Shown here piece by piece: positions 62,291-64,000 of a stretch of 64,000 bases of DNA. Position numbers and translations under genes: made by a program. This DNA is from Winogradskyella sp. (lineage in GTDB: Bacteria; Bacteroidota; Bacteroidia; Flavobacteriales; Flavobacteriaceae), in assembly GCA_028383925.1 (NCBI GenBank), contig JAOEWO010000003.1, positions 62,001-126,000 on the forward strand. Direction: 5' to 3'. Below the pieces are notes generated by a model. That model searched no databases and had not been told where the DNA came from. It saw nothing but the letters and a program-made list of their open reading frames with translations. Each line of letters starts with the position of its first letter. Position 1 is the first letter of the stretch.

Positions 62291-62581
62291 ATGAGTAAAA
62301 TAGAAGACATTGTTGATGCCTTAGAAAATAAAATCAGTAAGGTTTTGCATAAGAAGGAGGTTTTAAAACAAACTAATGCAAAGTTAACTGAACAGTTAAG
62401 CCAACAACAACACAAGCTAATACAGCAACAAGATGAAATTAAATCTTGGTCAGATAAGTATGAAACACTTAAAATGGCAAATTCAATGCTTGGTAGTGAC
62501 GAAAATAAGCGAGAAACGAAGCTAAAGATAAATGCATTAATTAGAGATATAGACCATTGTATTGGTCAGCTCTCTGAATAA
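62291..62581 (+). CDS. Small coiled-coil protein upstream of zapA
   Basis: The 96-residue protein is one long coiled coil (residues 1-65: IEDIVDALENKISKVLHKKEVLKQTNAKLTEQLSQQQHKLIQQQ, Gln- and Leu-rich) with a short C-terminal helix (KINALIRDIDHCIGQLSE). It lies 14 bases before zapA with a shared promoter. A ZapB-like or ZapA-partner role in division is plausible and inferred from position and coiled coil; no sequence match is claimed. Confidence 0.75.
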   Translation: MSKIEDIVDALENKISKVLHKKEVLKQTNAKLTEQLSQQQHKLIQQQDEIKSWSDKYETLKMANSMLGSDENKRETKLKINALIRDIDHCIGQLSE

Positions 62582-62595
62582 TTTTGTAAATTTAA

Positions 62596-62883
62596 ATGGC
62601 AGATCAATTAAAAATAAAGCTTTCTATAGCAAATAGAGTTTATCCATTAACAATAAACCCTAAGCAAGAAGAAGGTTTACGAAAGGCCACAAAGCAAATT
62701 GAGACCATGATTGGTCAATTTGAACAAAACTATTCTGTAAGAGATAAACAAGATGTATTAGCAATGTGTGCATTACAATTTGCAGCTCAAGTAGAACAAA
62801 AATCTATAGATAAAGAATATGTTAATGAAGAGGTGCAAGAGAAGTTAGAAGCTTTAAATGACCTTTTACAATCACATATTTAA
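62596..62883 (+). CDS. zapA: Cell division protein ZapA
   Basis: The 95-residue protein has the ZapA start LKIKLSIANRVYPLTINPKQEEGLRKATKQIETMIGQF, followed by a coiled-coil segment with DKQDVLAMCALQFAAQVEQ. ZapA binds FtsZ and cross-links filaments into the Z ring. It is cotranscribed with the coiled-coil gene and is followed directly by the 6S-like RNA and rny, an order that parallels zapA-ssrS in enterobacteria. Confidence 0.92.
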   Translation: MADQLKIKLSIANRVYPLTINPKQEEGLRKATKQIETMIGQFEQNYSVRDKQDVLAMCALQFAAQVEQKSIDKEYVNEEVQEKLEALNDLLQSHI

Positions 62884-62907
62884 CTCGTACGTTCTTTAAA
62901 ATAAATA

Positions 62908-63123
62908 AGGTTACTGCCTACATTAGTTACATTTTTTGATAAACTCAACGATCAATTCTTTAAAAAGGGTGAGTTTAAGTTGTAAAATCGTGCTGTTAGT
63001 GCTGCCCGTGCTAAACTTGTTTTAGTAACACAGTATCTTAGACAGATTTTTGATCAGCTTGTTAGCCCTAAACTTGTTTTTAAGGAGTTTATACAAAACC
63101 GATAATTGATGTAGGCTTTTTTT
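62908..63123 (+). ncRNA. ssrS: Probable 6S-type RNA (6S-Flavo candidate)
   Basis: The 318-base gap after zapA has no coding frame but can fold. A closing stem pairs GCCTACAT (62916-62923) with ATGTAGGC (63109-63116), extended by weak pairs, and is followed by a T-run (63117-63123), as in a terminator-ended RNA of about 200 bases. Inside are a hairpin TAAACTCA/TGAGTTTA (62940-62947 with 62970-62977) and a hairpin CTAAA/TTTAG (63011-63015 with 63021-63025). A 13-base direct repeat CTAAACTTGTTTT lies at 63011-63023 and 63068-63080. Position beside zapA and overall stem shape match 6S RNA, which binds RNA polymerase; the family match is inferred. Confidence 0.55.
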
Positions 63124-63201
63124 ATACTACTCATTTTGATTTTTTATTTCTAAGAAATTAAATTTTAAATTGAGTTTAGACACTAAAACTAAAAAATAAA
63201 C

Positions 63202-64000
63202 ATGGAAACTAACACAATCTTATACATTGTAGGAGGAGTAGTATTAGGAATAATACTAGGATATATTATAGCAAAAGCATTAGAAAAAGGCAATGCATCT
63301 AAATTAATATTAAATGCAGAAAGCGATTCAAAATCAATCTTAAAGCAAGCAAAATTAGATGCTGAGTCTTTAAAGAAAGATAAAATACTTCAGGCAAAAG
63401 AAAAATTTATTGAGCTAAAAGCAGAACATGAAAAGGTTATTCTTTCTCGTGATAAAAAAATGGCAGAAGCCGAAAAACGTATTAGAGATAAAGAATCTCA
63501 AATATCTAGTGAATTATCTAAATCTAAAAAAACAAACCAATCTTTAGAAAGTAAAGAAAAAGATTACGATTTTAAGTTAGAGTTTTTAGACAAGAAAAAA
63601 GAAGAAGTAGATAAGGCGCACAAAAGCCAAATTAAACAATTGGAAGTGATTTCTGCTTTATCTGCAGAAGAAGCTAAAGCGCAACTAATAGAATCTTTAA
63701 AAGAAGAAGCTAAAACAGATGCCATGGCATTTATACAAAACCATGTAGAAGAGGCCAAGTTAACTGCCCAACAAGAGGCTAAGAAAATTATTATTAATAC
63801 GATACAGCGTATTGGTACAGAAGAAGCTGTTGATAATTGTGTCTCTGTTTTTAATATAGAGTCTGATGACGTTAAAGGTAGAATTATTGGTAGAGAAGGT
63901 CGTAACATTAGAGCAATTGAAGCTGCAACAGGTGTGGAAATTATTGTAGATGATACGCCAGAGGCTATTATTTTATCTTGTTTTGATTCTGTAAGACGTG
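63202..64000 (+). CDS. rny: Ribonuclease Y, N-terminal part (window ends inside)
   Basis: The first 266 residues are seen: an N-terminal membrane helix ([20 protein letters not shown], residues 6-25), a long charged coiled coil (about 30-185), and the start of the KH domain with [21 protein letters not shown]. The HD catalytic domain lies beyond the window. RNase Y is a membrane-tethered endonuclease that begins mRNA decay. The gene follows the 6S-like RNA and continues past 64000. Confidence 0.95.

Follow-up and report, generated by a model that had tools for sequence, protein, structure and literature searches.

The window analysed here is a stretch of 64,000 nucleotides of Winogradskyella sp. 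(contig JAOEWO010000003.1, positions 62,001 to 126,000 of the forward strand). A non-coding gap of 318 bases (62884-63201) in the window is flanked by a ZapA ORF and an RNase Y ORF. The features of the locus, in coordinates of the window, are as follows.

62596..62883, + strand: zapA (cell division protein ZapA), upstream neighbour; 95-aa ORF; Pfam ZapA, E 1.9e-18
62889..62903, + strand: conserved element ACGTTCTTTAAAATA directly after the zapA stop; candidate promoter or processing signal; loosened pattern
62913..63123, + strand: full 6S RNA gene (6S-Flavo family); RF01685 core match 62943-63090 and our own full-length model
62916..62929, + strand: closing stem P1, 5' arm; pairs with 63103-63116 in fold and alignment
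62934..62946, + strand: inner stem P2, 5' arm, TTTTGATAAACTC; pairs with 63085-63098
62947..62965, + strand: central bubble, 5' strand; flanked by P2 and P3 in both fold and alignment
62997..63039, + strand: apical extension relative to short relatives, with nested repeat-like hairpins and outer arms AGTGCTG...CAGTATCT; limits by eye
63009..63030, + strand: inner REP-like hairpin TGCTAAACTTGTTTTAGTAACA with the 13-mer copy 63011-63023; four mismatches to the 22-nt consensus
63070..63084, + strand: central bubble, 3' strand; AAAC[TC]TGT conserved
63085..63098, + strand: inner stem P2, 3' arm; comparative pairing; inverted repeat I5
63103..63116, + strand: closing stem P1, 3' arm; pairs with 62916-62929 in fold and alignment
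63117..63123, + strand: T-run, likely 3' end, from the sequence
63202..63999, + strand: rny (RNase Y), downstream neighbour, runs off the window; Pfam RNase_Y_N, E 2.1e-35

The RNA element is best drawn from about 62908/62913 to 63123, its 5' end being approximate. Upstream of it, an element of the form ACGTTCTTTA(AAATA) follows the zapA stop at 156 of 159 loci, 20-40 nt before ACTGCC / the 6S stem, as counted with a loosened pattern and without a shuffled control; similar letters are seen by eye in the loci of a further family (f3, see below). TTCTTTAAAA recurs within the 5' strand of the central bubble, at 62956-62965. A scan for sigma-70 promoter-like sites returns 2, compared with 3.1 in shuffles, and a scan for simple terminators returns 0, both scans being ill-suited to this phylum. 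A small ORF (62291-62581) lies immediately before zapA, and its only Pfam match is below the cut-off; from its position, it is possibly a ZapB-like partner.

A rod-shaped RNA of the 6S-Flavo family

The predicted fold has an energy of -58.2 kcal/mol, whereas the shuffles average -40.81 (z -4.26) and none of 200 folds as well; the fold of 62913-63123 gives a z of -4.79 (again 0 of 200). Within a longer stem, GCCTACAT (from 62916) pairs without mismatch with ATGTAGGC (to 63116), and the stem is followed by seven T (63117-63123). We align 45 full-length relatives (39 Flavobacteriaceae and six members of a second family, f2) that are selected for short tips, and count on them a 39-pair structure comprising the closing stem P1, the inner stem P2, and four further helices. 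On these relatives, 94.5% of the cells are paired, 25 of the 39 pairs have changes on both sides, and the covariation score is 0.385, compared with 0.190 for shuffled and at most 0.102 for slid controls. P1 is paired in 98.0% of the cells, with eight of its 12 counted pairs changed on both sides; P2 is paired in 99.0%, with two of nine counted pairs covarying. Many pairs of the helices P3 to P6 are unpaired or gapped in six or seven rows; these are probably the six f2 rows, where the alignment is apparently shifted. The comparative pairing shows a long rod in which the closing stem P1 and the inner stem P2 lead into a large central bubble, topped by a variable apical arm. The structural features named in the preliminary description (a 318-base non-coding gap, an exact closing stem of 8 bp, internal hairpins, a T-run, and a position adjoining zapA) are all present, and the pairing is kept in relatives through compensatory changes.

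The Rfam model of 6S-Flavo (RF01685) matches positions 62943-63090 on the + strand with 93.7 bits, above its gathering score of 85; the match ends within P2. When the window is aligned to this model, the conserved core of the model consensus (ACUCAAC ... GGuGAGUuu ... CCccAAaCuUGUUUuu ... GGAGUUU) is present. The RF00013 (6S) covariance model has no match listed in the window. The full-length covariance model that we built, from an alignment in which the window is absent, covers 62913-63123 with 149.7 bits (E 2.8e-26). Covariance model and pairing together show that the element belongs to the 6S-Flavo family.

In its own genome, which is 83.2% complete, the RF01685 match is the sole match of the family. 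RF01685 is found in 66 of 68 genomes of the genus and in 194 of 199 genomes of the family sample (182 of 199 above the cut-off). Among genomes with a completeness of at least 90%, it is found in 59 of 59 and 164 of 164, respectively. The phylum sample yields matches at E ≤0.001 in 37 of 296 genomes, 13 of them above the cut-off; therefore, the Rfam model is narrow.

Gene order and 6S-like RNAs in other families

The order zapA-6S-rny on the same strand is kept at 123 of the 123 Flavobacteriaceae loci tested, with zapA required within 400 bases upstream and rny within 500 bases downstream. These loci represent 122 genomes, as L109 repeats the genome of L065. The six f2 loci are likewise flanked by zapA and rny. 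The preliminary description had called a 6S RNA at this place, and the call is borne out by the RF01685 match above threshold, the compensatory changes, and the position next to zapA.

The zapA-rny region is examined in 19 of the 21 other-order genomes named in the phylum-wide search, all 19 of which have ZapA. The four genomes from family f3, which we guess to be Sphingobacteriaceae, have a zapA-rny gap of about 200-300 bases with a 6S-like closing stem and a T-run (L136, L137, L139, and L142). Rfam leaves these gap sequences unreported. Our full-length model matches L136 well (E 2.9e-4); the values of L139 (0.2) and L142 (0.27) are no better than chance (a chance match in the window has 0.24), L137 is unreported, and the whole-genome search with the same model does not return the f3 zapA-rny places. 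Among the other 15 genomes, the zapA-rny gap is about 30-130 bases in 10, about 380 in L146, and about 680 in L153, and rny is not found in the locus in three. In family f8, all three genomes have model matches on contigs other than that of zapA (E 1.5e-6, 9.5e-4, and 3.5e-3). The f8 loci (L349, L350, and L351) carry GCAGCTCAAA[AT]CTTGTC, much like the bubble strand of Flavobacterium, and Rfam recognises one of the candidates with just 28.1 bits. The remaining genomes of the whole-genome search give no match to our model below E 0.28. We regard the extension to other orders as leads, not proofs; judged from their sequences, the f8 candidates are likely homologues. The zapA linkage and the homologues in other orders may already be published.

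The gene order could also suggest a cis-acting RNA, i.e., the folded 3' end of the zapA mRNA or a regulatory leader of rny, instead of a free 6S RNA. Such an RNA would account for the same-strand position at every Flavobacteriaceae locus tested, and zapA and rny remain near each other in the absence of the element in 10 of the 15 genomes outside families f1-f3. However, the covariance model places the element in the 6S family, and 6S RNA is detected as a known RNA in Flavobacterium psychrophilum, as stated in a passage of PMC9723704. In addition, in all three f8 genomes the likely homologues are on contigs other than that of zapA, and hence the RNA is not bound to a place beside zapA or rny. 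A cis-acting RNA is therefore very improbable, and we retain the free 6S RNA.

One further element, L135 (1222-1432, minus strand) of genome G299 in family f5, scores 38 bits with RF01685 and 41.9 bits with our model. It is absent from the whole-genome search with our model, and zapA and rny are not found in its locus; from its sequence, it is possibly a 6S RNA.

The central bubble, the apical arm, and the direct repeat

Known 6S RNAs sequester the RNA polymerase holoenzyme, and the synthesis of a product RNA releases the enzyme. Two classes of product RNA are described for the 6S RNA of Bacteroides thetaiotaomicron in a passage of PMC7366714. By analogy with the 6S family and the Bacteroides product RNAs, the window RNA would most likely trap polymerase in the same manner. 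The central bubble would imitate an open promoter, and the primary-sigma holoenzyme would bind the bubble and be kept off genes. When nucleotides return, the enzyme would transcribe the region around AACTCAAC in the 5' bubble strand into a short product RNA, with the 5' arm of P2 and the next AAC as the putative template; this synthesis would unfold P2 and release the enzyme. The 3' bubble strand with TAAACTTG would be the stand-in for the non-template -7 box.

AACTCAAC is invariant in the alignment of relatives (A2), while its presence in all extracted rows is no finding, since the row-extraction pattern requires it. The promoter box consensus given for F. psychrophilum in a passage of PMC9723704 is TAnnTTTG at -12 to -5. 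TAAACTTG (63069-63076) misses one of the six specified letters of this consensus, and the bubble-strand box deviates further in other groups (TAAACCTG, AAAACTTG, and CAAATCGTG). Therefore, the letters by themselves argue weakly for promoter imitation. Two candidate release-switch helices are attractive by eye and broken in part of the rows. The 3'-strand hairpin (UAAACUU with GAGUUUA) has no covarying pair and is paired in 86.3% of the cells, and the 5' hairpin (AAACUC with GAGUUU) has no covarying pair and is paired in 80.0% (45 relatives each). Neither helix is supported, and a release switch is not claimed.

The apical segment is 64 nt long in the window. Across 121 rows, its length falls into three ranges: 51 rows have 23-31 nt, 59 have 34-47 nt, and 11 have 59-64 nt; short segments occur in 48 of 56 rows outside the genus, compared with 3 of 65 inside. 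In relatives of the 47-nt class, the inner hairpin is mostly CTGAAnnnnnTTCAG, with 99.4% of the cells paired and six of 14 pairs covarying; one of the six, G-C in the majority of rows, is A-U in the window. A quick tree of flanking DNA from 65 genus members requires at least 18 changes among the four tip classes. For the long nested class (defined by length), it requires eight changes, five of which are forced by well-supported branches. The window (nested) and L083 (single) are sisters on this tree (support 97, starred), as are L045 (nested) and L033 (none; support 89, not starred). Exchange of the 6S gene between species could be an alternative source of this pattern.

The 13-base sequence CTAAACTTGTTTT occurs exactly at 63011-63023 and 63068-63080. 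Dinucleotide shuffling produces a direct repeat of at least 13 bases in 3 of 2000 trials for 62908-63123 and in 14 of 2000 for 62884-63201. The 3' copy (C63068, T63069, and the bubble 3' strand) is the conserved strand of the central bubble, and 151 of 159 rows keep AAAC[TC]TGT there. The 5' copy forms the tip of the variable, compensating apical hairpin. The 13-mer is present at least once in 111 of 159 extracted rows, the exact 13-base repeat occurs in one of them, and the window alone has a direct repeat of at least 12 bases. Rows failing the extraction pattern are dropped (L017, L041, L099, L116, L118, L285, L305, L307, and L308); the repeat score (121 rows) is further without L090 and L114, and the apical segments are further without L026 and L050.

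Compared with the window, the apical segment of L068 is seven edits away, that of L062 nine, and that of L083, the sister on the flank tree, 21. The tip of L062 (CTGAACTTGTTTCAG) differs from that of the window (CTAAACTTGTTTTAG) by exactly one G-C to A-U pair. The repeat may have arisen by this pair change or by another path, as L068 (CTAAACTAGTTTTAG) is nearer and already has the A-U pair, its 13-mer being off by one loop base. Our claim is limited to one or a few base changes in the hairpin as the origin of the match between the copies. The exact repeat is a by-product of hairpin evolution, with no functional duplication.

Selection of the apical CTAAACTTGTTTT copy as a second polymerase-binding or decoy element would be consistent with the rarity of the exact repeat in shuffles and with a 9-mer (AACTTGTTT) that the hairpin tip and the bubble strand share in 11 further rows of 121. 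It is scarcely credible, however: the exact repeat is confined to a single row, the hairpin loop varies (CTTG, CTCG, TTTA, CGTG, and CTAG) while the bubble copy stays constant, and three genus members lack any apical insert. The earlier suggestion that the repeated sequence is a functional element thus holds for the 3' copy, which lies in the conserved bubble strand, and fails for the exact repeat. We put the probability at about 0.9 that the element is a 6S RNA gene of the 6S-Flavo family, present in a single copy and likely working as other 6S RNAs do, and that its 13-base repeat does not represent the duplication of a functional unit.

The apical palindrome and comparison with known systems

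The apical hairpin resembles a palindrome that is dispersed in genomes. The pattern GTGCTRAACTTGTTTYAGTA is found in at least 118 stretches of public genomes; among the matches listed, 93 are from Flavobacteriia and the rest are from other Bacteroidota and other phyla. With at most three mismatches, TGCTGAACTYGTTTCAGTATCT is present in 66 of 68 genomes of the genus, at up to 69 places, and absent from two of 68, while the reversed control gives 0-1 per strand per genome. The own genome of the window has 12 such matches, compared with one for the reversed pattern, and the genome copies of the palindrome occur in both orientations. In 6S RNA, 39 of 93 long unique sequences match the ambiguous 22-nt consensus at three mismatches or fewer, compared with 0 of 62 short ones. 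By row, this match is seen in 35 of 66 in the genus and in 6 of 93 in other genera. The window tip is four mismatches from the consensus, which has a chance of about 3e-5 per random hairpin and placement. The palindrome core occurs in 31 of 65 genus 6S genes (12.5 kb), compared with two occurrences in 243.6 kb of flanking DNA. On these sequences, the apical hairpin is probably derived from the dispersed REP-like palindrome.

Short AT-rich hairpins look alike, and the apical hairpin might have come to resemble the palindrome by convergence. Several observations would agree with this. The near-perfect 6S copies all have one orientation (39 rows forward and 0 reverse), which also leaves repeated random insertion unsupported; the head letters GTCAT of some genome copies are absent from the 6S tip; and the 22-nt consensus was originally read from 6S tips. 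In addition, no Y1 transposase tracks copy number: Y1_Tnp is present in three of 10 genus genomes and absent from most of the copy-rich ones, and we name no mover. The palindrome is also found in none of 30 tmRNA bodies. Against convergence stand the restriction of consensus matches to long 6S sequences, in which the reversed consensus never has fewer than seven mismatches, and the absence of any match at three mismatches or fewer in 200000 random hairpins, each drawn at one fixed placement. The true dispersal of the consensus in genomes, compared with its reversed control, and the presence of the palindrome in RNase P RNA argue in the same direction. We therefore consider convergence unlikely, although it keeps appreciable weight, and favour derivation from the palindrome. 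The identity of the palindrome with Flavo-1 (RF01705) is rejected; the sole above-threshold match (L170, 1563-1718) lies away from the palindrome sites there.

Both GTGCTRAACTTGTTTYAGTA matches in one Winogradskyella record (L202) are inside RNase P RNA. The palindrome core, at one mismatch or fewer, is present at seven of 50 genus RNase P loci examined (L360, L389, L390, L391, L393, L394, and L396). The 50 loci are the 30 best-scoring and 20 picked ones, some for a long match, from 64 genomes with a match; the RNase P bodies are taken from the listed match start, and some begin inside the first hairpin. In five of the seven loci, the palindrome is near the first hairpin, in at least three as an inverted pair with the potential for a long stem; in three, it is at a second place near the 3' part, and one locus has both. 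The RNase P RNA of the window's own genome (L392) lacks the palindrome. Copies shared by descent among related genomes are not independent events.

We lean slightly towards the view that, in Winogradskyella and other Flavobacteriaceae, dispersed REP-like palindromes settle at helix tips of structural RNAs that are essential, where compensatory changes would keep them foldable and stable RNAs would serve as safe havens and archives of a mobile hairpin. The sites so colonised would be, with the same modest preference, the 6S apical loop, with nested second palindromes (the window included), and two or more peripheral sites in RNase P RNA. If true, such a capture offers a natural experiment. It bears on the amount of change that a global transcription regulator can accommodate at its tip, as well as on the spread of short palindromes through Bacteroidota.

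The literature search returns no paper that links 6S RNA and REP elements, its coverage being thin. Short repeats in stable RNAs have parallels elsewhere. In 1997, Vioque reportedly described STRR repeats in the RNase P RNA of cyanobacteria. By the definition of RepRanger, and as given in a passage of PMC12306157, REPs are present in 81 of 157 E. coli sRNAs, which is likewise a short repeat in stable or regulatory RNA. In contrast to RepRanger and STRR, the palindrome here is at the 6S tip and in the RNase P RNA of Flavobacteriaceae.

The RNA itself belongs to an already known family, and the main claim is an ordinary one. This analysis contributes an alignment over the full length that includes the closing stem, a set of likely homologues from other orders that score below the Rfam threshold, and the observation that 6S and RNase P RNA have apparently captured a dispersed palindrome. 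The enterobacterial 6S RNA (ssrS, RF00013) is a rod with a closing stem and a central bubble, as is the window RNA. It likewise adjoins zapA in beta- and gammaproteobacteria, according to a passage of PMC7641849, whereas its model has no match in the window and matches 0 of 19 Bacteroidota genomes of other orders. Bacteroidales-1 RNA (RF01693), for which an Rfam note suggests the name 6S-Bacteroidales RNA, is the probable 6S RNA of a sister order; it is a separate Rfam family that gives just 33 bits (cut-off 60) to an f2 locus (L129). The closest known system is 6S-Flavo RNA of Bacteroidota (RF01685), described in the part of Weinberg et al. 2010 (PMC2864571) consulted, with which the window shares sequence and structure above the cut-off. 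In contrast to that family's model, which matches the core only, the window has the closing stem P1 and the T-run outside the match and about 40 extra nt in the apical loop.
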